In this document: one piece after another, positions 21,331 to 32,158 of the stretch | How the letters are laid out: each line of letters starts with the position of its first letter | Numbering within the stretch: the first letter of the stretch is position 1 | Assembly: GCF_003399625.1 (NCBI RefSeq) | Contig: NZ_NBXA01000002.1 | Span: 62,001 to 126,000 of the forward strand | DNA from: Subtercola boreus | Lineage (GTDB): Bacteria; Actinomycetota; Actinomycetes; Actinomycetales; Microbacteriaceae | Reading direction: 5' to 3' | Length of the DNA: 64,000 nucleotides | Program-made: the position numbers and the translations under genes | The notes under the pieces: model-generated | Told to the model about the DNA's origin: nothing | The model's input: only the letters and a program-made list of their open reading frames with translations | Databases searched by the model: none

Positions 21331-21390
21331 GGGAGGAGCTCAGCCGACGTGCCGCCCTATTCGGCTGACGTGGGCTGTGTTCCTCCCGAA
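21331..21390. repeat. Palindromic element, copy B of the 60-bp repeat
   Basis: Aligns without gaps to 2966-3025 (45 of 60 identical). Outer arms 21328-21337 and 21381-21390 pair over 10 bp, and inner arms CAGCCGA (21341-21347) and TCGGCTG (21361-21367) pair over 7 bp. The right half, from 21357, is inside the 3' coding end of the diacylglycerol kinase gene, so the element supplies that protein's last residues (SGGTQPTSAE). It probably terminates the two convergent transcripts. Confidence 0.7.
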
Positions 21391-22472
21391 CGGGAAGATG
21401 CGGCCTCTGCCTCGACGGCGGGCAGGCTCGAGGCCGGCAGTGCCCGGCCGCCGAACGAACCGCGTACGCGGAGCGCGCCCGCCTCGATCCACGCCGTGGC
21501 CGAGGTCACCCGGCCGAGGTACTCGCCGTCGATCTCGAAGTCCTGCGCCTCAGTCACGGCGAACGTGATCGCATTCGCCCGCGCGTGGCGCACCGACGAA
21601 GTCGTGACGGGGGCCGATCCGTCGGCTGCGGCGCGCGCAGCGGGCTTCCGGGGCAGATACGCGGTGTTGGTGCGCCAGAACCAGTGGATCGCCCGGGCCC
21701 ACTCGCCGGCACCGAGGGGGCTCAGCACCACCACGTCGAGCTGGCCGTCGTCGATCAGGGCACCGGGGATCATCCGGATGCCCGCCGGCAGCACGCCCGC
21801 ATTGCCGAGCACGATCGTGTGGGCCGGGGTCTCGGGCAGTGTCACGCCGTCGAGCGTGTAGCTGAGGTCGAAGCGTCGGTTGCGAACGAAGGAGTCGAGG
21901 ATCGCGCCGACGTACCCGGTCCAGCCGAGGGTGTCCTTGCCCTTGGGCGAGGTGTTGACCACCATCTGGGCATCGACGCCCATGCCTGCCATGACGGTGA
22001 ACGCGCGGCTGATCGTCTCGCCGGAGTCGAGCACGGCGTCCACCCGGCCGACGTCCACCGTGCGGACCGTCTCGCTGAACGCTGCCCGCAGCGCCTTCCG
22101 GGCGTTCACGAACGGCAGGCCGATCACGCCGAGCGGCAGGCCGAGTGCCCGTGCGAAGAGGTTCGTCGTTCCGGTCGGCAGGATTCCGAGCGGAACCTGC
22201 TGGTGGGTGAGGGCCTGGGCGACAGCGCTGACGGTGCCGTCGCCGCCGGCAGCGATCACCACGTCGGGGGAGGACTCCAGCAGGCGGAGTGCGGCATCGT
22301 GCCCCGGATCCTCCACCGTGGTGGCGGCCCAGAGCGACGGAGCCCAGCCCTTCTCGGCCTCCACCGCGGCGACCATCGCGCGAAGACGTTTCTCCGTGAC
22401 CTTCGTCGGGTTGTAGACGATCGCGGCCGTCGGCCCACGCCTTTCGGCGGGCACTCCCCCCGGAGTGGACAC
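21357..22472 (-). CDS. Diacylglycerol/lipid kinase (DAGK catalytic domain)
   Basis: Cytosolic or membrane-associated lipid kinase, 371 residues. It carries the DAGK signature AAGGDGTVSAV, followed by LGILPTGTTNLFARALGLP, and the C-terminal beta-sandwich typical of YegS/DgkB proteins (FEIDGEYLG). It would phosphorylate diacylglycerol or a related neutral glycerolipid. GTG 22472 lies 20 bases after the stop of the upstream diiron protein gene in the same direction, so both are probably co-transcribed. This places a lipid kinase at the edge of the 21-32 kb lipid block. The last residues derive from a palindromic repeat. Confidence 0.92.
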   Translation of the reverse strand: MSTPGGVPAERRGPTAAIVYNPTKVTEKRLRAMVAAVEAEKGWAPSLWAATTVEDPGHDAALRLLESSPDVVIAAGGDGTVSAVAQALTHQQVPLGILPTGTTNLFARALGLPLGVIGLPFVNARKALRAAFSETVRTVDVGRVDAVLDSGETISRAFTVMAGMGVDAQMVVNTSPKGKDTLGWTGYVGAILDSFVRNRRFDLSYTLDGVTLPETPAHTIVLGNAGVLPAGIRMIPGALIDDGQLDVVVLSPLGAGEWARAIHWFWRTNTAYLPRKPAARAAADGSAPVTTSSVRHARANAITFAVTEAQDFEIDGEYLGRVTSATAWIEAGALRVRGSFGGRALPASSLPAVEAEAASSRSGGTQPTSAE

Positions 22473-22492
22473 GGCCGCGCTCAGCTCACCGG

Positions 22493-23290
22493 TCAGACCG
22501 CGGCGATGCCGTGGCCGTCGAGAGAATCGGCGACGATCGTGAGCCCCTTGAGCCCGGGCATCTTGGCGATGTGGGCGTCGATTGCGTTGATGGCCTTACG
22601 ACCGTCGATGCCACCGAAGATGTGGCCCATCACGTGCTTGACCTCGGTCTGGTCCATGATGGTCGAACCCACCGGGCCCCAGAACTTGCCGAGCGCGAAC
22701 CGCGCGAACTTCTGGGCGAGCAGGCTCTTGCCAAGTCGCTCACGGGCCTGGGTCGCGTAGAAGGCCACGTGGCGGGCCTCCTGCATCGCGATGCGCTTCA
22801 GTAGCTCGGCGAGCACGGGGTGGCCCTCGATCTCGGCGAGTCGCTTGTAGGCGGCCACGGCCGACCACTCGTTCGCGGCGCCCCAGATCATGTGCACGGC
22901 GATGAAGTCCTTGCCGACCAGGTTCGAGAGCACCGACTGCTTCACGGGATCGATGCGATCCTTCCAGCCGAGCTTCAGGCGCTTCGACTTCAGCTCGTCG
23001 AACTCGAGCTCGATGTCGTGCATCCGGAGCACATCGGCGAGAGCTTCGCCGTGCCAGAACTCCTCACGGTTCCACATCGTCATGAAGCCGGTCACGTCTT
23101 TGTCGCGGTGCGAGGGGGTGACGAGCATGTCGCGCATGTAGCAGACCGTGTGGTATTCGACGTCGGCCATGTACCGGATGACGCGGAGGGTGTCGTCCGG
23201 CAGCGGATTCGTGCGGAACGTCTCGAAGTCGAGGTCTTCCCAGGCGACGTTCTTCGACGTCTTCGTGTAGTTGTCGATGTCGAAGGCCAT
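22493..23290 (-). CDS. Ferritin-like diiron protein, desaturase-like (intact site)
   Basis: A 265-residue all-helical protein. Six putative iron ligands occur in the spacing of the ferritin-like/acyl-ACP desaturase superfamily: Glu45, Glu77 and His80 (EFWH), Glu141 (NEWS), Glu171 and His174 (EARH). Such sites activate O2 for desaturation or oxidation of lipid-linked substrates. No membrane segment or signal peptide is evident. A diacylglycerol kinase gene follows in the same transcript, and a degenerate paralogue lies at 28005-28820 beside a fatty acyl-CoA reductase. A role in fatty acid or ether-lipid desaturation is an inference. Overall family placement is firm, the substrate unknown. Confidence 0.85.
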   Translation of the reverse strand: MAFDIDNYTKTSKNVAWEDLDFETFRTNPLPDDTLRVIRYMADVEYHTVCYMRDMLVTPSHRDKDVTGFMTMWNREEFWHGEALADVLRMHDIELEFDELKSKRLKLGWKDRIDPVKQSVLSNLVGKDFIAVHMIWGAANEWSAVAAYKRLAEIEGHPVLAELLKRIAMQEARHVAFYATQARERLGKSLLAQKFARFALGKFWGPVGSTIMDQTEVKHVMGHIFGGIDGRKAINAIDAHIAKMPGLKGLTIVADSLDGHGIAAV

Positions 23291-23439
23291 GGGCGCTTGA
23301 GGCGGTGCACGTTGCCGGGCGGTGCCTCATCCTCCTGTTTCTGAAAGTGCCAAGTTCTGGCGGTCGGGTTCTACCTATTGTGCGGGGTGAATCTGAAAAT
23401 TGTAGCCATGCCGGCTGAGCAGCATCGGTTGTGAGACTT

Positions 23440-24132
23440 CTACTGCCACACTCGGCGTCTGGTCGGGCCGGTCGGTGTCGCTGTGGCCTTCCACATCCGC
23501 CGCCAGCCGGCCTCTGGCTGCCCCTCGGTCTCCCGGGGAACGACGACGTCGGCCGGCGACCTCCGTGCGCCGTACCAGCCTCGAGACTCCTCGGCCAGCC
23601 CGACCTCGATCGCCTGGGCGATACTCTCGGTCACTGCGGATGATTCGTCGCCGGAGCCCGCTCGGATTGGTCGGGAGAACAGCACCGAGACGCGGGGACG
23701 CCCGGGCTCCACCGTGAGGCGCCACGGCGGGAGGGCCCGGAAGGTGCCGAGGAGCGCCACCGGCACGAGCGGCACACCGGTGCGGATGCCGAGAGCGGCT
23801 GCCCCGAGGTCGAGCGGAGCGAGCGATCCATCGCCGGTGCGGGTCGTCTCGGCGAACAGCAGCACGCTGGTGCCGCTCTTCAGCAGGGCGGAGAGGCGGC
23901 TGGCCGACCGGAGGCTGAGGGCCTGGTCCACGAGGCCCCGGATGCCGCCCCGCGGTTCCACGGCAACCGAGACCAGCCGTGGCACGACGCTTCGGAGGGC
24001 ATTCCGCACCAGCGCCTCGTCGAGCTCCGACGGGTGGTTCGCCACGAAGATGAACGGCCCGCCCTGCTCCTTCACGTGTTCGAGACCGTGGACGGACGGC
24101 GTGACGGCGAGCCGGATCGCGAGCCCGGCCAT
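23440..24132 (-). CDS. PlsC-type acyltransferase (lipid block, minus strand)
   Basis: A 230-residue 1-acylglycerol-3-phosphate acyltransferase-like protein starting at ATG 24132, which overlaps the previous stop (ATGA). The catalytic block reads FVANHPSELDEAL (HX4D in the form HPSELD), and the second block is FAETTRTGDGSLAPL where PlsC usually has FPEGTRS. It then continues GVPLVPVALLG. The altered EGTRS motif (ETTRT) suggests an unusual acyl acceptor. It is the last gene of the four-gene operon running from 28820, with the reductase/HAD fusion and the LarA-like protein. It could acylate glycerol phosphate, DHAP or a lyso-ether lipid; the sequence does not decide. Confidence 0.85.
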   Translation of the reverse strand: MAGLAIRLAVTPSVHGLEHVKEQGGPFIFVANHPSELDEALVRNALRSVVPRLVSVAVEPRGGIRGLVDQALSLRSASRLSALLKSGTSVLLFAETTRTGDGSLAPLDLGAAALGIRTGVPLVPVALLGTFRALPPWRLTVEPGRPRVSVLFSRPIRAGSGDESSAVTESIAQAIEVGLAEESRGWYGARRSPADVVVPRETEGQPEAGWRRMWKATATPTGPTRRRVWQ

Positions 24133-25685
24133 CAGCTGACCTCGGAGATACTCACCGGTGCACCGTGCACGTAGGTGATCGCCGGGGCGAGCCCGACCGA
24201 GCCGGAGGCCATCTCGAGGGCGTCGGCGAGGGTCGAGGCCGACTTGAAGCCGAGGCGCCTGGTCGAGCCGTGGTCGCCGCCCACGAAGATGATCTCGCCG
24301 AGGTGGGCGATGGCCGGAGCAGCGGAGTACCAGGCGTGGAACGGGTGCAGCGCATGGTTCGACGAGCTGGTCTGGTAGACGTGCCGGTACCACGGGTCGG
24401 CTGCGAACTTCTCCTCGAACTGCTCCGAGATGACGGCCGGATCGGTGCTCTGGGTCAGTACCTCGGCGAAGAAGTCGATGTAGGCGGGGTCGTGGAGCGG
24501 GTGGAACCACGGGGTCAGCGGGTGGTAGAAGATCGCGGTTCCGCCGGCCCGCACGACGGGCTCCGCGGTAGCCCCGTTGAAGATCTGGCCGAGTCCGAGG
24601 GCTGCCGCCGTGACGGGGTTCAGGCTCGACCCGATGGTTCCCGGGTTCGGGATGCCGAACAGCGCGACATCCGCCGGCCTGTCGAACTGGGCGACCTGCT
24701 GCTGGGCCAGGAACGCCTCGGTCAGCGGATGCACGGAGCTGGGTTTTCCCGCGACCACCGAGGTGACCCCGTAGCCGACCCCCGAGACCTGAGCCAGGCC
24801 GATCCGGGCGCGGGCGGGAAGGATGCGCGTGGCAGCCTGGAGCCCGGCGGAGAGGGCGCGGTCGGTGAGGCTCCACTCCCGCTCGCGCTTGCTGAGGAAG
24901 GCGGAGGCGGGGCCGGTGGGCTCCGGGGTGAGGGTGACGTCGACGGTGAAGACCTGGGCCTTGTCGCCGATGGTGTCGACGAGGTCGTCGAACGCGTCTG
25001 TGCTGATTTCAGCTGCCGCTGCCGCCGTGCGTACCGCGAACGAGCCGCGGGCCCGCGCCGTCTTCGCACCGATCAGCTTGGTCGCAACGGCCGCAGCGCC
25101 CTCGTTGCCGACCGCCGTGGCGAGGCGCACCGAGATGACGAGGTCGCTCGACGCGACCCGACCGTTGACCTCGATCGGGGTTCCGTCTGCCAGCTCGCCG
25201 ACCACCTGGAGGTTCTCGTCTTCGGCGTCGTGGCTTCGCACGTGGTCGGGTGCGAACGAGGCGTACACGCGCTCGCCCAGCACGCGCTGCAGGTCGTGCG
25301 CGGTGAGGCGGCGCCGGAGCCCTGTCGCCGCGATGAGCTCGACGTCGTCGACGCCGGCTGCCGCCGCCCGTTCGAGCACGAGTTCGATGACGCGCTGCCG
25401 CACATCCGGAGCCGTACGGCTCGTGACCGGCTGCGAGAGGTCTTCGAACACGATCGTGACGCGGGAACCACGCTTCAGGAGCGCACGGAGCGGTTCGCTG
25501 TCGACGGGGGCGTCGAGTGCACGGCTGATCGCCTCGTCGAGCGAGCGGATGCCCTGCAGCGCCTCGGGCGGGTACAGCACGCTCGCATCGACCGGGAGCC
25601 GCTCGAGAAGAACCTTCTCGCCCTGGAACACGACGAGCGGAGGAGTCTGGGCATCGACGCTCAGAACGAAGCCTGGTCTACTCAT
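24132..25685 (-). CDS. LarA-like (DUF2088 family) protein
   Basis: A 517-residue protein related to the nickel-pincer lactate racemase LarA. The N-terminal motifs are recognisable but altered: EDLSQPV where LarA has a DxTRP-like motif, ATGLRRRLT where LarA has a His in ATGxHR, then HDAEDEN and GTPIEVN. The PHxxxGxSGG region around the pincer lysine and histidine is replaced by RLATAVGNEGAAAVATKLIGAKTAR, so racemase chemistry seems unlikely. ATG 25685 overlaps the stop of the reductase gene by eight bases. It lies within a lipid operon, whereas lar genes usually come with larB and larC; neither is here. The function is unknown. Confidence 0.75.
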   Translation of the reverse strand: MSRPGFVLSVDAQTPPLVVFQGEKVLLERLPVDASVLYPPEALQGIRSLDEAISRALDAPVDSEPLRALLKRGSRVTIVFEDLSQPVTSRTAPDVRQRVIELVLERAAAAGVDDVELIAATGLRRRLTAHDLQRVLGERVYASFAPDHVRSHDAEDENLQVVGELADGTPIEVNGRVASSDLVISVRLATAVGNEGAAAVATKLIGAKTARARGSFAVRTAAAAAEISTDAFDDLVDTIGDKAQVFTVDVTLTPEPTGPASAFLSKREREWSLTDRALSAGLQAATRILPARARIGLAQVSGVGYGVTSVVAGKPSSVHPLTEAFLAQQQVAQFDRPADVALFGIPNPGTIGSSLNPVTAAALGLGQIFNGATAEPVVRAGGTAIFYHPLTPWFHPLHDPAYIDFFAEVLTQSTDPAVISEQFEEKFAADPWYRHVYQTSSSNHALHPFHAWYSAAPAIAHLGEIIFVGGDHGSTRRLGFKSASTLADALEMASGSVGLAPAITYVHGAPVSISEVS

Positions 25686-28008
25686 GGGTGATTTCTTTCG
25701 GGCTCGGGCCGAGGGCCGGGGTGGAGGATGCGCTCTGCACGATGTCGCCGCGCAGCAGCTCGCCGACGGTGTCGAATCGGCTGTGGTTGTGGTCGCTCCA
25801 CTGGTGGATGCGCCAGTGCTTCTGGGTCGCGTGCTGGAACAGTGCGGCGTCGGGGTTGACAGCCTGCGGGTTGCCGACGAGTTCGAGCCAGGCACGGTCG
25901 GCGATGCTGTCACCGTACGCGTACGACTTCTTCAGGTCGATGCCCTCACGCTCCCCGTAGAGGCGGAGCCACGCGGCCCGGGCCTCGTCGACGAGCGGGG
26001 GCTTCGAGAGGTGGCCCGTCCAGATGCCGTCCTTCGAGTGCATGTGGCTCGACACGACCTCGTCGAACAGGGTGACGAACGGTTCGACGAGCACATCGAT
26101 GGCCCCGGTGACGAGGATCGTGCGGTGCCCGGCCTCGCGGTGCTTCCGGATCTGGCGCACGGCCTCCGGGCGGATCCGCTGCAGCAGCACGTCGCCGACG
26201 GTGTCGTGGATCAGCTGGCGGAGCGCCTGCTCGTCGACACCCTCGTACCGCCGGTAGAACGTGCGGATGAACTCGCCCCGGTCGCGTCGGTCGGCGGCGA
26301 GGTACTTCGGGAGCGAGCCGAACAGGTTCGCGAGCTCCTGCGGCCACTTCGCACGATCGAGGCTGGCGAGCCGCACCCAGAGGTACTGCTCGACGATGTT
26401 CGAGGCGAGAACGGTGCCCTCGAGGTCGAAGAACGCGGCCGCCTCGGGGTTCTGGGGCAGGGGCTTCTCGACCTGGGCCTTCGCGCGGGGCCGCGAGCTG
26501 AAGGTGCGCATCAGCGTCGTGACGGCCGGGAAGTGAACCTCCTGCAGGTAGTTGTCCCAGTCGATCTCGGTGGCGTCGAAGCCGAACGTCTGCCGGGCAT
26601 CCGGCGGCAGCGTGTCGTTCAGCGCCGCCGTGCGGGAGTCGTCGTAGATGATCTCGGCCTGCGTGTAGTTCTGGTAGAGGTCGCTGTAGGCACGGAGGAG
26701 CTCGAGATCGGTCTGCCGGGCGGAGGCCTGCCGCATGAAACTGCGGGTGGTCTGGGTGGAGGGCAGGCGGAGCAGCGTGCGCTGCAGCAGCTTGTTCGCA
26801 CGCTCACCCGTGCGGAGGCTCCGCGCGATCGCCCGGGCGCCGGGGAAGTCCCAGTAGGGGGTGCGGATGTGGCCGCGCTGCTCGTCGGGGATCGGATTCG
26901 CGCGGAAGTACTTCAGCACGTTCTCGTAGATCTCGCGGAAGGTCAGCGGGTTGCGCCCACCGGAGGAGAGGTGGAAGTACTTCGGGTCGGCGGGGGCCGG
27001 CGGGTTGGCCGCCACGGCGAGCGTCGCGTTCACGACGATGTCGACCGGGATGATGTCGAGGATGCTGTCGGGCAGTCCCGGGAATTCGGGGACGAGCCCG
27101 CGGCCGTAGGCGATGATGAGCGGATCCGCCACCTTGAAGCCGTCGATCCAGCCCGGGAACGGGTGCTTCAGGGCGCTCTCGATGATCGCGGGGCGCACGA
27201 CGGAGAGCCGGTGGCCGTTGCCGGCCCAGAGCTCCTCGGCGACCCGCTCGCTCATCGATTTCGTGAAGGCGTACACATCCGCCCAGCCGACGCTCTGCGC
27301 GCGGGTGCGCCCGTAGTCGACGAGGCGCTTCGTGACCCATTCGGTGCGACCGATCTCGGCCGCGATGGCGACGGCGTGCGGGCCGACCTTGCCGTTGTCG
27401 AGCTTCGCGTCGGCGATCATCTTGCGGAGCACCTCGGGGCGCCTCGAGGAGGCCTCGACCGTGGTGCGGGCGGCCAGCGCGGCCGCCATCTCGTCACGCC
27501 ACTGGATGGTGTGCTTCAGGCTGGCCTCGAGAACCGTGCCCTTGTTGATGCCGCCGACGTACGCGGTCGACACGTGCACGACGTGCGGGTCGCTGCCCGT
27601 CGCGAGCAGAGCTTCGTAGAGGCCGACGGCACCGCCGACGTTCGTCTTGAACGCCTCGTCGATGGGCGGGTCGAAGGAGACGGTCGAGGCGCTGTGGATG
27701 AGCACGTCGAGGTCCGCAGGAAGGCCCGCCACCGATCCCATGCTCGACTCGATGACGGAGATTCGCTCCGTCATCGCACGGTCGACCTCCTCCTGGCCGA
27801 CGCGTTCACGCCACTTCGAGAAGACGGGCTTTCGCAGCAGGCTCTTCAGCCGCGCCTGGCCGGTGAGCGAACCCTTCGGCCTGATGAGGAGGGTCATCCG
27901 TGTCGTGGGGTAGTCGGCGAGGAGCTTCTCGAGAATGGCCTGGCCCACGAAACCGGTCGCGCCGGTGAGCATGATGTGCTGGCCCTCGAGGGGGGAGAAG
28001 GCGCTCAC
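25678..28008 (-). CDS. Fatty acyl-CoA reductase fused to HAD-IB domain
   Basis: A 776-residue two-part protein. Residues 1-about 500 form a FAR-type extended SDR: nucleotide loop TGATGFVG, catalytic Tyr246 and Lys250 (YAFTK), and a sterol/FAR_C-like C-terminal part. It should reduce acyl-CoA to fatty alcohol with NADPH. Residues about 520-750 form a SerB-like HAD-IB phosphatase domain with AAFFDLEGT (nucleophile Asp528), ILVTGAIDVLVEPF and YAYGDSIAD. The usual Asp two residues after the nucleophile is Glu530, which may alter phosphatase activity. GTG 28008 overlaps the upstream stop by four bases. It is the central enzyme of the proposed ether-lipid block; wax ester or fatty alcohol production are alternatives. 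Confidence 0.88.
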   Translation of the reverse strand: MSAFSPLEGQHIMLTGATGFVGQAILEKLLADYPTTRMTLLIRPKGSLTGQARLKSLLRKPVFSKWRERVGQEEVDRAMTERISVIESSMGSVAGLPADLDVLIHSASTVSFDPPIDEAFKTNVGGAVGLYEALLATGSDPHVVHVSTAYVGGINKGTVLEASLKHTIQWRDEMAAALAARTTVEASSRRPEVLRKMIADAKLDNGKVGPHAVAIAAEIGRTEWVTKRLVDYGRTRAQSVGWADVYAFTKSMSERVAEELWAGNGHRLSVVRPAIIESALKHPFPGWIDGFKVADPLIIAYGRGLVPEFPGLPDSILDIIPVDIVVNATLAVAANPPAPADPKYFHLSSGGRNPLTFREIYENVLKYFRANPIPDEQRGHIRTPYWDFPGARAIARSLRTGERANKLLQRTLLRLPSTQTTRSFMRQASARQTDLELLRAYSDLYQNYTQAEIIYDDSRTAALNDTLPPDARQTFGFDATEIDWDNYLQEVHFPAVTTLMRTFSSRPRAKAQVEKPLPQNPEAAAFFDLEGTVLASNIVEQYLWVRLASLDRAKWPQELANLFGSLPKYLAADRRDRGEFIRTFYRRYEGVDEQALRQLIHDTVGDVLLQRIRPEAVRQIRKHREAGHRTILVTGAIDVLVEPFVTLFDEVVSSHMHSKDGIWTGHLSKPPLVDEARAAWLRLYGEREGIDLKKSYAYGDSIADRAWLELVGNPQAVNPDAALFQHATQKHWRIHQWSDHNHSRFDTVGELLRGDIVQSASSTPALGPSPKEITHE

Positions 28009-28820
28009 GCGGCTGCCTTCACGCCGTAGCGCCTGGTCGCCCTCGTCATGACCTTCAGCCCGCCCAGGCCCGGAAGTGCATCGACACCCCGGTCGACGCC
28101 GAAGACTCCAGCACGCCCCTCGGCGTCACTGAACAGGTACTTCATCATCAATCGGGTCTCCTGGATCGGTTGCTCGTGCGTGCCCGTCGGCACCCACGAG
28201 CGCCTGAGCGACGACCGGGTGAGCTTCCGAGCCGATACCGATTCTTCCAGTCTTCGCACGGTTTCGCCTTCGAAGAACTGCAGATGCCGGTCGCGGAGCT
28301 TCTGGAAGGCGGCCAGAACCTCGACCAGCGCGGGATTCGGGTCGTTCTTCGACAGCTGGGAGTAGGACACCCGGCTCACCAGCTCGTCGATGTAGCCGCG
28401 AGTGACGTGGCCCGCGATGATGTCCTCACCGATCAGGTTCGAGCGGATGGCCGTGACGATCGGCGACACCCTGTCGATGGCCTCCCGGGTGAATCGCACG
28501 ACACCGGAGCGTGCGCGGTGCGTCACGGGAGCGAAATCCGGGTGCACGGCGATGATGCGGTCGAACGCATCCGCGATCCAGAACTTCTCAAACGCCCACG
28601 TCGCGAGGAACGCCGTGAGCCGCGCATCCTTGTGGCTCGGGGTCACCAGCACGTCGCGCATGTGGTGCATCGTGAAGTCCTCGAGGTCGCGCAGGTACGC
28701 CAGCGTCTGAAGCGTCTGGTCGGTGAGCGGATGCTCGGCGAACGCCGCCAGCGGCAGGGTCGCCTCGTGGCTGCCCGCCGCGGTGCGGGTGTATTCGCGG
28801 ATGTCGAAGTCAGAGGTCAT
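28005..28820 (-). CDS. Degenerate ferritin-like diiron paralogue
   Basis: A 271-residue paralogue of the protein at 22493-23290, sharing the block MRDVLVTPSHKDARLTAF and overall spacing. Three of the six metal ligands are lost: the EFWH pair becomes Lys79 and Ile82, and the first Glu of EARH becomes Arg176. Glu47, Glu146 and His179 remain. It is therefore probably non-catalytic, perhaps a partner or regulator of the intact paralogue. GGAG precedes ATG 28820, and TATGAATACT lies in the 83-base divergent spacer shared with the SDR gene. It is the first gene of the operon that continues with the reductase/HAD fusion (GTGA overlap). Confidence 0.82.
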   Translation of the reverse strand: MTSDFDIREYTRTAAGSHEATLPLAAFAEHPLTDQTLQTLAYLRDLEDFTMHHMRDVLVTPSHKDARLTAFLATWAFEKFWIADAFDRIIAVHPDFAPVTHRARSGVVRFTREAIDRVSPIVTAIRSNLIGEDIIAGHVTRGYIDELVSRVSYSQLSKNDPNPALVEVLAAFQKLRDRHLQFFEGETVRRLEESVSARKLTRSSLRRSWVPTGTHEQPIQETRLMMKYLFSDAEGRAGVFGVDRGVDALPGLGGLKVMTRATRRYGVKAAA

Positions 28821-28903
28821 GGTGGTCTCCGGTCGGGCAGAGGAAGTGAGTATTCATACAGCGGTGCATCAGTCGTTCGTCGCCATCACGTATCGTGATT
28901 GCC

Positions 28904-29674
28904 ATGGTTACGGCAATGGTCACGGGTGGCACCTCGGGTATCGGTGCGGCGTTCGCGCGCGCACTGGCAGACCGGGGTGACAACCTGGTCATCGTCGCAC
29001 GCGACGAAACACGACTCGCCGAGACCGCCGAGTCGCTGCGCACAGAATACGGCATCGATGTCGAGACGATCTCGGCCGACCTCGGTGAGCGCGCCGATGT
29101 GCTGCGCGTGGCCGCCCGTCTCGAAGACACCTCCTCGCCCATCGACATGCTGGTGAACAACGCAGGTTTCGGCGTGCACGCCTCTCTTCTGGCCGTCGAC
29201 ACGACGCCGCACGAGCGCGCGATCGAGGTGATGATCCGCGGCGTGCTCATGCTGGGGGCCGCTGCCGGGCGCACGATGCGTGAGCGCGGGTCGGGAACGA
29301 TCGTCAACGTGTCGAGCGTGGCCGGCTTCATCACGATGGGGAGCTACTCGGCCGTCAAGGCCTGGGTCGCGTCCTACAGCCAGGGCCTCTCGGTCGAGCT
29401 CCGAGGTTCGGGAGTGCAGGTCACGACGCTCTGCCCCGGCTGGGTGAAGACCGAGTTCCACGCCCGGGCGGGCATCCGGGAGTCGTCGATCCCGAACTTC
29501 CTCTGGGTCGATGTCGACGAGCTGGTGGCGGCATGCCTGGCCGATGTGCAGAAGGGCAAGGTCATCTCGGTGCCCTCCCGCCGGTTCCAGTTCCTGATGT
29601 TCGTGATCAAGCACGCTCCGCGGAGCGGAATCCGCTGGGCGTCGGGAAAGATCTCGTCCAGCCGCAACGACTGA
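28904..29674 (+). CDS. Short-chain dehydrogenase/reductase
   Basis: A classical SDR of 256 residues: cofactor loop TGGTSGIG, NNAG, catalytic Ser-Tyr-Lys with YSAVK, and PGWVKTEF. An Arg after the second strand (VIVARDETRL) suggests NADP(H). Start ATG 28904 follows TATCGT (28891-28896) by seven bases, a leaderless arrangement; GTG 28895 is in frame but would overlap that box. It is divergent from the reductase operon and precedes an acyltransferase and an alkyl-DHAP-synthase-like gene. In that setting it could perform the keto reduction done by acyl/alkyl-DHAP reductase (DHRS7B) in animals; this is inference. Confidence 0.88.
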   Translation: MVTAMVTGGTSGIGAAFARALADRGDNLVIVARDETRLAETAESLRTEYGIDVETISADLGERADVLRVAARLEDTSSPIDMLVNNAGFGVHASLLAVDTTPHERAIEVMIRGVLMLGAAAGRTMRERGSGTIVNVSSVAGFITMGSYSAVKAWVASYSQGLSVELRGSGVQVTTLCPGWVKTEFHARAGIRESSIPNFLWVDVDELVAACLADVQKGKVISVPSRRFQFLMFVIKHAPRSGIRWASGKISSSRND

Positions 29675-29726
29675 CAGGGTGCCGCACGCGTTTCGGTTCC
29701 ACAGGCGGAGTGGGTACTCTGGGTTG

Positions 29727-30491
29727 GTGCAGTTCGGCAACAGATACACCTCTAAGGCCCAAGCGGGTGCCCGCTTCGTCGCCCAGCGCCTGCTGCTGAA
29801 GCCGGTCATCTGGTCGATGGTGCATGTGACCATCACCGATCGCGCCCTTCTCAAAGACGTCAGGGGCCCGTACATCGTGGTGGCGAACCATTCCAGCCAC
29901 CTGGATGCGCCCCTCATCCTCGGGTCGATGCCCTCGCGCCTCTCCCGCTACCTCGCGGCCGCTGCTGCGGCGGACTACTTCTTCGACGTGTGGTGGCGGA
30001 AAGGCCTCACCGCGCTGTTCTTCAACGCCTTCCCGGTCGACCGCAGCGCGAACGCCCGGTCGACCGGCTTCACGGGCAAGCTCCTGAAGGCTGGAGTGCC
30101 GCTGCTCGTCTTCCCCGAGGGCACGCGCTCGAAAGACGGCACGATCGCCCCGTTCAAGGGCGGCGCCGCCGCGCTCTGCCTCAAGGCGGGCATCCCGTGC
30201 ATCCCGATGGCCCTCGTCGGCGCCACGCAGGCCATGCCGCGCGGCCGCAACTGGCCCGTGCCCGGAAGGCCGCCCGTCCGGGTGCGCTTCGGCCAGCCGC
30301 TCATCGCCGCCGAAGGCGAGAACGTCACCGACTTCAACGACCGCATCGAGAAGGTCGTGCGCGAGATGCACGCGGCCGAGTTCGCGCTGTTCCTCGCCGA
30401 GACGGGCGCCAACGTCCACAATCACCCCACTGTCGAATCTGCCGATGCAACCGGCGACTCCGACGAGCACCCCCGTGAAGGAGCCGCATGA
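29727..30491 (+). CDS. PlsC-type acyltransferase (lipid block, plus strand)
   Basis: A 254-residue acyltransferase with canonical motifs: VVANHSSHLDAPL (HX4D), FNAFPVDRS, FPEGTRSKDG and IPMALVG. GTG 29727 is preceded by TACTCT (29715-29720) at six bases, supporting a leaderless start. The stop overlaps the ATG of the alkyl-DHAP-synthase-like gene (ATGA), so the two enzymes are co-translated. That coupling is telling: in animals the AGPS enzyme uses acyl-DHAP made by the acyltransferase GNPAT. It would acylate DHAP, glycerol phosphate or the sn-2 position of an alkyl-glycerol phosphate. Confidence 0.9.
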   Translation: MQFGNRYTSKAQAGARFVAQRLLLKPVIWSMVHVTITDRALLKDVRGPYIVVANHSSHLDAPLILGSMPSRLSRYLAAAAAADYFFDVWWRKGLTALFFNAFPVDRSANARSTGFTGKLLKAGVPLLVFPEGTRSKDGTIAPFKGGAAALCLKAGIPCIPMALVGATQAMPRGRNWPVPGRPPVRVRFGQPLIAAEGENVTDFNDRIEKVVREMHAAEFALFLAETGANVHNHPTVESADATGDSDEHPREGAA

Positions 30492-32158
30492 CCGACGTCA
30501 AGCACATGAAATGGTGGGGCTGGGGCGTCGAAGGGGTGGGGTTCCACCACGAGGACAAGCCGGGCTTCGCGCCGTTCGTCGTCAACGCCGTCGGCATCGA
30601 TGTGTGGCGGGAGCCGGTTCCCCCGGTCGCCTTCTCCGAACTCGACGTTCCCGCATCCCAGGCACCCGCAGAGCTCCTCGAAGCCCTCACGACGATCGTC
30701 GGGCCCGAGTTCTCGACCGTCGACGATGAAGAGCGCGTCGTGCACACGTACGGCAAGAGCATCCGTGACCTGATCCGTGTGCGTGCCAGCACGTTCGCGC
30801 GGGTGCCCGACGTCGTGGTCTACCCGGCAGACGAGAGTGCGGTGCAGCGCATCGTCGACCTCGCGGTGTCGCTCGACGCCGTGGTCATCCCGTTCGGCGG
30901 CGGCAGCAACATCGTCGGTTCGCTCGAGCCGATGCCCACCGAGACCCGTACCGTGATCTCGCTGGACATGGGCCGGCTCTCGCGCGTGCTCGACATCGAC
31001 GAGTACTCCGGGCTCGCGGTCATCCAGGCGGGCGTCCTCGGCCCCGACATGGAGGAGCAGCTGCAGGCCCGTGGCTGGACCATGGGCCACCAGCCCGACA
31101 GCTTCACCTACTCCACCCTCGGTGGCTGGATCGCAACCCGCTCATCGGGCATGCAGAGCGACAAATACGGCGACATCGCCGACATCACGAAGGGCCTCCG
31201 GGTCGTGCAGCCGGGCAAGCTGCTGGTCGTCCGCCCCATCCCCTCGTCTGCCACAGGCCCGAGCGTGCGGGAGGCCATCCTCGGCAGCGAGGGTCGTCTC
31301 GGCATCATCACCGAGGCCACCGTGCAGGTGCACCGCCTGCCCGAGAAGCGCGAGGTCATCGGCTACCTCTTCCGCGACTGGGAGTCCGGCCTCGCCGCCA
31401 TGCACGACATCAACACCAGCGATGCCGCGCCCTCCATCACCCGGGTCTCGGATGCCCGTGAGACTGCGTTCTCGTTCTCGACCTCGAAGGCCTCGCACGG
31501 CATCAGTGGCCAGGTGCAGAAGGCGCTGTTCGCGTTCCTGCAGAAGCGCAGCTGGAACCTCGACGAGGTCTGCCTCTCCTTCATCGGCTACGAGGGTTCG
31601 GCCGCCAACGTCGCACACCAGAAGAGCCTGGTCGGCAGCATCGTGAAGAAGCACGGGGCGATCACCCTCGGCAAGGGCCCGGGTACCCTCTACGACCAGA
31701 AGAAGTTCGACACGCCCTACCTCCGCGACTTCCTCCTCGACCGCGGTGCGGCGGCGGATGTCTCGGAGACCTCCGCCCCGTGGTCCCGCCTGAAGCCCCT
31801 CTACGACAACGTCTTCGCGGCGGCCAACAAGGCCTATGACTCGCTCGGCGAGAGCGGCTGGATCATGTGCCACCTCTCGCACTCGATGCACTCCGGCGCC
31901 TGCCTCTACTTCACCTTCGCCTTCACGCACGACGGCGTGGATCCCCTCGCACAGTACGACGTGGTGAAGTCCGCCATCCAGCAGGCCTTCATCGATTCGG
32001 GCGGAACGCTCTCGCACCACCACAGCGTCGGTGTCGAACATTCCCAGTGGACGGAGCAGGACATCTCGGTGGCCGGCGCAGACCTCATCCAGGGCATGTT
32101 CACGGCCGTGGACCCGGGCAAGAACCTGAACCCGGGGAAGATCCTCCGCCGGGACTGA
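30488..32158 (+). CDS. Alkyl-DHAP-synthase-like FAD-linked oxidoreductase
   Basis: A 556-residue flavoprotein of the VAO/PCMH family that resembles alkyldihydroxyacetonephosphate synthase (AGPS). AGPS swaps the acyl chain of acyl-DHAP for a fatty alcohol to make the ether bond. AGPS-like marks are MKWWGWG near the N-terminus (residues 7-13), the FAD loop PFGGGSNIVGSLE, TRSSGMQSDKYGDI, the Tyr-containing GACLYFTFAF, and a triple histidine (His510-512, HHHSVG). A simpler D-lactate or glycolate dehydrogenase role is the alternative, but the N-terminal and HHH motifs favour AGPS. It is followed by a strong terminator. Confidence 0.85.
   Translation: MTDVKHMKWWGWGVEGVGFHHEDKPGFAPFVVNAVGIDVWREPVPPVAFSELDVPASQAPAELLEALTTIVGPEFSTVDDEERVVHTYGKSIRDLIRVRASTFARVPDVVVYPADESAVQRIVDLAVSLDAVVIPFGGGSNIVGSLEPMPTETRTVISLDMGRLSRVLDIDEYSGLAVIQAGVLGPDMEEQLQARGWTMGHQPDSFTYSTLGGWIATRSSGMQSDKYGDIADITKGLRVVQPGKLLVVRPIPSSATGPSVREAILGSEGRLGIITEATVQVHRLPEKREVIGYLFRDWESGLAAMHDINTSDAAPSITRVSDARETAFSFSTSKASHGISGQVQKALFAFLQKRSWNLDEVCLSFIGYEGSAANVAHQKSLVGSIVKKHGAITLGKGPGTLYDQKKFDTPYLRDFLLDRGAAADVSETSAPWSRLKPLYDNVFAAANKAYDSLGESGWIMCHLSHSMHSGACLYFTFAFTHDGVDPLAQYDVVKSAIQQAFIDSGGTLSHHHSVGVEHSQWTEQDISVAGADLIQGMFTAVDPGKNLNPGKILRRD

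Follow-up and report, generated by a model that had tools for sequence, protein, structure and literature searches.

A compact gene block of Subtercola boreus that probably directs aerobic ether-lipid synthesis, with a ferritin-like diiron protein as candidate vinyl-ether desaturase

A group of nine closely packed genes from the actinobacterium Subtercola boreus (Microbacteriaceae) was analyzed within a window of 64,000 nucleotides (NCBI RefSeq assembly GCF_003399625.1, contig NZ_NBXA01000002.1, positions 62,001 to 126,000 of the forward strand; coordinates below are those of the window). The block probably makes ether glycerolipids, most likely plasmalogens, by an aerobic logic similar to that of animals, with the ferritin-like protein FERa as the leading candidate for the final, vinyl-ether-forming step. 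As judged from sequence, it encodes an alkyl-dihydroxyacetone phosphate (alkyl-DHAP) synthase-type flavoprotein (AGPS) and an enzyme of the fatty acyl-CoA reductase (FAR) type, contains a core of conserved genes, and carries in FERa a diiron site of the desaturase type. The components of this proposal differ in strength. Synthesis of alkyl ethers by the block is very likely, and production of the Subtercola plasmalogens by the same genes is likely; the ether part of the argument is strong, while the role of FERa is one that we infer.

The nine open reading frames (ORFs) occupy positions 21357 to 32158, none has an internal stop, and conservation of the genes extends to other genera. Their arrangement is that of two divergent operons, one on the minus strand running from 28820 down to 21357 (FERb, FAR-HAD, LARA, PLSCa, FERa, DAGK) and one on the plus strand from 28895 to 32158 (SDR, PLSCb, AGPS). 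FERa, FERb, PLSCa, PLSCb, and LARA are labels coined in this analysis. The features are as follows, with E-values of profile or PDB matches where these are the basis of assignment.
21357 to 22472, minus strand: DAGK, lipid kinase of the YegS/Rv2252 type, accessory, possibly an alkylglycerol/diacylglycerol kinase (DAGK_cat 1.4e-19, YegS_C 5.8e-11).
22493 to 23290, minus strand: FERa, ferritin-like diiron protein with an acyl-ACP-desaturase (ACP, acyl carrier protein) fold, candidate vinyl-ether (delta-1') desaturase (ligands and fold).
23440 to 24132, minus strand: PLSCa, first PlsC-type acyltransferase, accessory (Acyltransferase 3.4e-12, with 23440-24165 as the query).
24132 to 25691, minus strand: LARA, LarA-like protein with Arg replacing a catalytic His column (Lar_N 1.8e-28).
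25678 to 28008, minus strand: FAR-HAD, fatty acyl-CoA reductase fused to a HAD-IB hydrolase (NAD_binding_4 6.2e-45, HAD 2.4e-33).
28005 to 28820, minus strand: FERb, FERa paralogue lacking a full metal site, presumed partner subunit (ligand columns and fold).
28821 to 28894, no strand: intergenic stretch separating the divergent operons, presumed promoters (sequence).
28895 to 29674, plus strand: SDR, short-chain dehydrogenase, candidate acyl/alkyl-DHAP reductase (adh_short 9.7e-42; alternative start ATG at 28904).
29679 to 30491, plus strand: PLSCb, PlsC-type acyltransferase of the conserved core, candidate DHAP acyltransferase (Acyltransferase 1.8e-21).
30488 to 32158, plus strand: AGPS, alkyl-DHAP synthase-type flavoprotein (FAD_binding_4 and FAD-oxidase_C; PDB 2uuu 1.9e-115, 4bby 1.4e-84).
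Spacings between adjacent genes, from the 21357 side onward, are 20, 149, -1, -14, -4, 74 (the divergent gap), 4, and -4 bases, and PLSCa begins at the ATG at 24132, which has one base in common with the TGA of the preceding gene LARA. A preliminary description of this DNA had reported nine genes packed into 11 kb with stop/start overlaps, as borne out by the ORFs, the gaps, and conservation. It treated the genes as one block; they lie in two divergent operons, and only six of them constitute the conserved core. The lipid kinase, two PlsC acyltransferases, FAR/HAD fusion, and SDR that it named each matched their family in profile searches, and the ninth gene, which it left unnamed, encodes the LarA-like protein.

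The flavoprotein is of the AGPS type (EC 2.5.1.26) by its PDB matches, its active-site columns, and its place in a tree. Its nearest sequence in the PDB is Dictyostelium AGPS (2uuu, 390 bits), followed by guinea-pig AGPS (4bby, 288 bits) and, as a third group, D-lactate dehydrogenase (68 bits). The motifs HMKWWGWG (residues 6-13) and SHHHSVG can be read in the protein, in agreement with the MKWWGWG and HHH motifs cited in the preliminary description. When the sequences are aligned, the window protein and its close orthologues retain all of the residues that we take to form the active site, by guinea-pig numbering H300, D303, R419, R515, Y578, and H615-617. Within the GACIYFYF stretch the window protein has Tyr, as does guinea-pig chain 4bby, while the other guinea-pig chain, 4bca, has Phe; columns 527 and 635 vary even between the two eukaryotic AGPS. 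In a tree of 51 rows (66 before removal of three duplicates and of 12 rows related to groups already represented), the window type (21 rows) forms one group (100/100) that joins the two eukaryotic AGPS (97/94); outside fall the glycolate-type proteins (100/99) and the distant AGPS-like proteins (98/92). The eukaryotic branches are long, so exclusion of the glycolate type is more certain than the exact position of the eukaryotic rows.

These data bear on the idea of a D-lactate/glycolate-type dehydrogenase in a block unrelated to ether lipids, to which we attach almost no probability. The top NCBIfam model is indeed GlcD (6.3e-36), at 124 bits against a cut-off of 568, and several AGPS columns are common to six of the 12 glycolate-type rows. 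Nearly all are missing from the other six, however, the D303 residue occurs in none of the 12, and on the PDB matches and tree we reject a dehydrogenase identity; the grouping with D-lactate/glycolate dehydrogenases that the preliminary description had named as counterevidence does not appear. Distant AGPS-like flavoproteins of other Actinomycetota share the superfamily (30-40% identity), some near a DAGK-like gene, but they form the separate tree group noted above and have Glu or Gln at the D303 column. Two AGPS genes elsewhere appear interrupted, one reading in two overlapping frames (G135) and one matching in two pieces (L187), as from a broken gene or sequencing error.

The FAR domain of FAR-HAD matches the PDB fatty acyl-CoA reductase 7eoz (8.2e-45) over residues 7-496, and a Sterile C-terminal domain scores 35.0 bits against a cut-off of 35.4. 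PDB matches of SDR are generic for SDRs, and PLSCb has generic PlsC/AGPAT matches only (PDB AGPAT 5kym, 7.2e-18), so that neither points to DHRS7B or GNPAT in particular.

Acid methanolysis turns vinyl ethers into dimethylacetals, which are thus a signature of plasmalogens. Dimethylacetals, mentioned for Subtercola in the preliminary description, are published for four species of the genus, with approximate totals of 29% (S. boreus), 27% (S. frigoramans), 22% (S. vilae), and 21% (S. lobariae) (PMC5945732). The leading dimethylacetal chains are i16:0, a15:0, and a17:0, and branched chains are also found among the fatty acids; Agreia has at most 4% dimethylacetals, and Frondihabitans is said to have none (PMC5945732). 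Agreia bicolorata, low in dimethylacetals by the same source, carries the block. The MIDI system names dimethylacetals only through its anaerobe database, and its peak “C14:0 2-OH” corresponds to anteiso-C15:0 dimethylacetal in Kineococcus strain B12 (PMC7472656). The peak of that name in Subtercola type strains may be the same compound. Values for “C14:0 2-OH” and for the dimethylacetal in the available parts of two papers are close for S. boreus (10.4/11.0) and S. frigoramans (9.9/10.3) and far apart for S. lobariae (3.9/9.7) and S. vilae (15.6/3.2). In Glaciihabitans tibetensis, the block is present (L181) and 4.2% “C14:0 2-OH” is published; the same peak is on record for Frondihabitans and Frigoribacterium faeni. 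Outside Subtercola, Agreia, and Kineococcus, the literature as available is undecided on dimethylacetals. In PMC11767043 the word occurs just in a reference, and a term search of the available text of the S. vilae genome paper (PMC6518244) returned neither plasmalogens nor dimethylacetals.

By fold and ligands, FERa is predicted to belong to the soluble diiron acyl-ACP desaturase superfamily. Across 141 aligned rows, E77, H80, E141, E171, and H174 are present in all 141 and E45 in 140, a pattern of two ExxH motifs and two further Glu typical of a ferritin-like diiron carboxylate site. The predicted model (predicted local distance difference test [pLDDT] 83.9) is nearest to stearoyl-ACP desaturase (Z 17.6, root-mean-square deviation 3.6 over 231 residues), ahead of DesA2 (Z 15.5) and R2-type proteins (at most 14.7), with a best Foldseek E-value of just 1.8e-3. 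DesA2 of Mycobacterium is in register with E141, E171, and H174 of FERa in a profile search (E 0.0028). FERa thus resembles the soluble acyl-ACP desaturases, stearoyl-ACP desaturase and DesA2, in fold and ligand pattern but differs from them in its 14-19% identity over the fold, in its score below the FA_desaturase_2 cut-off (16.9 versus 22.7 bits), and in its linkage to ether-lipid genes. It lies below every other Pfam and NCBIfam cut-off as well, and the best NCBIfam match of 29 FERa rows (alignment A1, 29 of 38 rows with nine near-duplicates omitted) was to AcsF at 7.7e-6.

FERb is a paralogue of FERa in which three ligands have been lost. Among 113 rows, the E77 column is Lys in 105, the H80 column is His in none, and the E171 column is Lys or Arg in 108. 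Its predicted model (pLDDT 89.3) folds in a FERa-like manner, and its structural matches are weaker (best E 0.098). Searches of Pfam and NCBIfam returned no family above cut-off for FERb, and 27 rows (alignment A2, 27 of 38; six whose best FERb match lay on the FERa gene and five near-duplicates omitted) gave no Pfam match at 0.01. The protein is presumed to be a partner subunit, and such pairing of a catalytic with a metal-less subunit is reminiscent of soluble methane-monooxygenase-type enzymes. Of the two proteins described earlier as a diiron pair, FERa has the six ligands of such a site, but FERb does not.

Known vinyl-ether enzymes were sought in the genus, family, and phylum. CarF/PEDS1 (PF10520, Lipid_desat) was found in 0 of 199 genomes of the family, and no protein of the block matches PF10520 at 0.01; the same profile matches 12 of 296 phylum genomes as a positive control, 11 of them from family f18 (loci L274-L276). 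PF09989, a domain of the anaerobic route that we take to be part of PlsA, was detected in 0 of 11 genomes of genus Subtercola and in 4 of 14 controls. FERa is the sole protein of an O2-activating type in the conserved core. Because a plasmalogen needs a 1'-2' double bond, because CarF and PF09989 were not found in these searches, and because AGPS and FER genes co-occur in 54 of the 55 family genomes with AGPS, FERa is the candidate desaturase. The preliminary description had expected an enzyme of the PEDS1/CarF type, which the family genomes do not support; the O2-activating candidate of the core is instead a soluble ferritin-like protein. Its animal-like logic is supported in part, by the AGPS type, the FAR match to 7eoz, and the published dimethylacetals, but not with respect to PEDS1/CarF. 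In the available part of PMC9131029, true CarF outside myxobacteria is named just in Leptospira, although the phylum matches above show that PF10520 proteins of the CarF/PEDS1 type also exist in Actinomycetota.

The dimethylacetals might alternatively derive from the anaerobic reductive PlsA/PlsR route, with the block serving some other task. Orthologues of this system are reported for several actinobacterial orders (PMC9702350), but the 0 of 11 result for PF09989 and the description of two Subtercola species as aerobic, in the sources available, make this origin very unlikely.

The conserved core consists of FERa, FAR-HAD, FERb, SDR, PLSCb, and AGPS, and is present in 37 of 40 loci of the family, in identical arrangement in 36. 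Thirty-eight of these loci were taken from the 54 further family genomes whose AGPS orthologue has at least 63% identity, and two have a distant AGPS. The FER pair is relocated and inverted in L068, no FER was seen in L043, and AGPS is the sole core gene in the two loci with distant AGPS (L074 and L075). Named genomes, scanned with the FERa alignment as query, gave 256 relatives, of which the best 80 were kept as named loci, and 58 of these 80 likewise have all six core genes; FERb matches are not split from FERa cross-matches in this count, and a hand count requiring separate places gave 59, two with partial AGPS. Genera with the core among these best 80 of 256 are Subtercola, Labedella, Herbiconiux, Salinibacterium, Lacisediminihabitans, Rhodoglobus, Glaciihabitans, Agreia, Amnibacterium, Galbitalea, Pseudolysinimonas, Phytoactinopolyspora, and Ruania. 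In the top relative, Subtercola boreus P27479, FERa is identical to that of the window and the other block genes are 95-99% identical. One further record, named “Corynebacterium-like bacterium B27” (L150), has a Herbiconiux-type block and a FERa that groups with Herbiconiux; the name may be wrong.

Among the 199 family genomes, an AGPS orthologue is present in 55, FER in 60, and both in 54 (Fisher 1.2e-40, ignoring kinship; at most seven AGPS candidates were scored per genome, a number exceeded in G057 and G079). In G113, which is among the 54, the only FER match is a FERb-like one, and the sole AGPS genome without a FER match (G101) is 85% complete. In two Jiangella genomes and Naasia, FAR-HAD, SDR, PlsC, and AGPS form a FER-free block, and FER is kept elsewhere in the genome, as FERa in Jiangella and as the FER pair in Naasia; AGPS is present in 7 of 7 Jiangella genomes searched. 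Alkyl-ether synthesis and FER are therefore two modules that travel together yet are separable. This arrangement also speaks to the possibility that two half-pathways merely adjoin one another, FAR-HAD, the LarA-like protein, PlsC, and FERa making a wax, alcohol, or aldehyde lipid and SDR-PlsC-AGPS acting separately. A metagenome-assembled genome (MAG; L173) has FAR-HAD, a LarA-like gene, PlsC, and FERa together and no AGPS at E 1e-20, as two half-pathways would predict, but this MAG may be incomplete. Because FAR and AGPS stay together in the Jiangella and Naasia blocks away from FER, FAR belongs with AGPS, and we regard a division into half-pathways as unlikely.

Assignment of the vinyl-ether step to FERa is tentative, and several observations weigh against it or against plasmalogen synthesis by the block as a whole. 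It would be unusual for a soluble desaturase to act on an ether lipid of the membrane. No FERb separate from FERa was found in the seven Jiangella genomes, each of which yields a single match to the FERb profile (1e-70 to 3e-72); in J. muralis this match has the coordinates of FERa. The named loci led to 21 genomes, of which 12 encode an AGPS of at least 62% identity and nine have FER without a window-type AGPS, namely four Agromyces, two Leifsonia, Haloactinopolyspora, Actinopolymorpha, and one MAG. Six family genomes likewise have FER without an AGPS orthologue. One of these (G107) is cut by a contig end and is not counted here; among the other five, G142 has a distant AGPS (34%), and G025, G057, G079, and G102 have none among the scored candidates (G057 and G079 having been scored in part). 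The two counts overlap, since G102 seems to be one of the Leifsonia genomes just named (Leifsonia flava). In a FERa tree of 123 rows (identical rows and rows below 230 residues omitted), the Agromyces-Leifsonia type is nested inside the cluster type, which suggests that ether genes were lost and FER was retained in this lineage, and therefore that FER is useful without AGPS. Across 396 phylum genomes no association of FERa with AGPS-like proteins was detected (at least six shared versus 4.9 expected; counts are lower bounds, with at most three AGPS and six FERa candidates per genome in the respective searches), and two phylum genomes have a 59-60% AGPS, FER not being found. In the available sources, “C14:0 2-OH” is absent from S. 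endophyticus and present in traces only in Lacisediminihabitans profunda (the block was not looked for in either species), and the main text on Herbiconiux mentions no dimethylacetals. Finally, a PF00487 membrane desaturase is present in 11 of 11 genomes of genus Subtercola and could be the missing vinyl-ether enzyme instead of FERa, and C18:1 in Subtercola is another possible desaturase product.

Some of these points fit an alternative in which the block yields saturated alkyl ethers, FERa and FERb desaturate ordinary acyl chains, and the vinyl ether is formed by another enzyme, such as PF00487. FERa has the fold of an acyl-ACP desaturase and is found also without AGPS, and C18:1 (summed feature 8) is reported at 52% in S. 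lobariae, 40% in S. frigoramans, 12% in S. boreus, and 0.8% in S. vilae (PMC9287328). However, the table of PMC5945732, as far as available, differs from that report in listing no C18:1 and monounsaturated branched chains only in trace in one of four Subtercola species. A FER match also accompanies AGPS in 54 of 55 family genomes, and FER is retained even when located elsewhere. We consider this alternative possible but doubtful. Probabilities assigned to the readings do not sum to one, since synthesis of alkyl ethers only and the two half-pathways overlap with the preferred reading of plasmalogen synthesis.

Ten neighbors of FER genes (nine beside AGPS-less FER pairs in L077-L079 and one beside a distant FERa in L117) were scanned against Pfam and proved housekeeping or unrelated, including DNA ligase, LigD primase, Na/H exchanger, peptidyl-tRNA hydrolase, RNase H, and NusA. 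In L257 and L258 (family f42), a 59-60% AGPS adjoins a PlsC-like gene, with no FER found, and these genomes may represent a natural alkyl-only control.

For the preferred reading, plasmalogen synthesis with FERa as desaturase, a route of six steps is proposed, in which the order of steps, the substrates of PLSCb and SDR, and the whole of the sixth step are presumed. FAR-HAD would reduce a branched acyl-CoA or acyl-ACP to a fatty alcohol, and PLSCb would acylate dihydroxyacetone phosphate. AGPS would then exchange the acyl chain for the fatty alcohol to give 1-O-alkyl-DHAP, which SDR would reduce to 1-O-alkyl-glycerol-3-phosphate. A PlsC would supply the sn-2 acyl chain, and ordinary enzymes the head group. 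Last, FERa, usually with FERb, would use O2 and a ferredoxin to introduce the 1'-2' double bond in place of PEDS1/CarF. As guesses, the HAD domain might dephosphorylate an intermediate and DAGK might re-phosphorylate alkylglycerol.

DAGK, PLSCa, and LARA occur in this arrangement only in Subtercola and Labedella-type loci among the loci compared. LARA scores 491 bits with the NCBIfam LarAH14/15/16 model (cut-off 740), and its first catalytic His column is Arg (GLRRRLT versus GLHRKNT in 9q2u). A LarC profile that finds 6 of 14 controls matched none of 11 genomes of genus Subtercola. Because of the Arg substitution and because LarC was not found in these genomes, LARA probably does not use the nickel-pincer cofactor. 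A LarA-like gene similar to LARA sits with FAR-HAD, PlsC, and FERa in MAG L173.

The animal aerobic plasmalogen pathway consists of FAR1, GNPAT, AGPS, PexRAP/DHRS7B, and PEDS1. The window block resembles it in the grouping and active-site columns of AGPS and in bringing together FAR, SDR, and acyltransferases, but differs in the fusion of FAR to HAD, in the soluble diiron-type pair where PEDS1/CarF was not found, and in its organization as one gene block. In Myxococcus xanthus, too, FAR, acyltransferase, and NAD-dependent genes accompany a bacterial AGPS, in the elb operon and in MXAN_1676-1674, along with CarF (PMC9131029). In contrast, the window block has no ElbD-type FAR-ACS-ACP-AT protein (FAR and HAD domains only), CarF was not found, and it includes a ferritin-like pair that the available part of that paper does not name for the M. 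xanthus loci. Anaerobic PlsA/PlsR synthesis would also yield dimethylacetals, but its PF09989 domain is the one found in 0 of 11 Subtercola genomes.

Aerobic plasmalogen genes are known from myxobacteria (PMC9131029), agps homologues have been listed in Actinobacteria MAGs (PMC11868695), and dimethylacetals are published for the aerobic actinobacteria Subtercola and Kineococcus (PMC5945732, PMC7472656). In the open-licence literature, as available, no genes were seen tied to actinobacterial dimethylacetals and no ferritin-like vinyl-ether desaturase was seen. The block provides a short list of genes for these actinobacterial dimethylacetals, each individually deletable. We raise, slightly more tentatively than the role of FERa itself, the possibility that a vinyl-ether desaturase dependent on O2 evolved a second time and independently, in the form of FERa (mostly with FERb), which has the soluble acyl-ACP-desaturase fold and would be the counterpart, in aerobic actinobacteria, of the PEDS1/CarF of animals and myxobacteria. 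If FERa is the desaturase, the O2-dependent vinyl-ether reaction would have arisen twice, once in a membrane enzyme and once in a soluble ferritin-type enzyme. In addition, presence of the block might be used as a genomic marker of plasmalogens, which standard fatty-acid kits can misname (PMC7472656).

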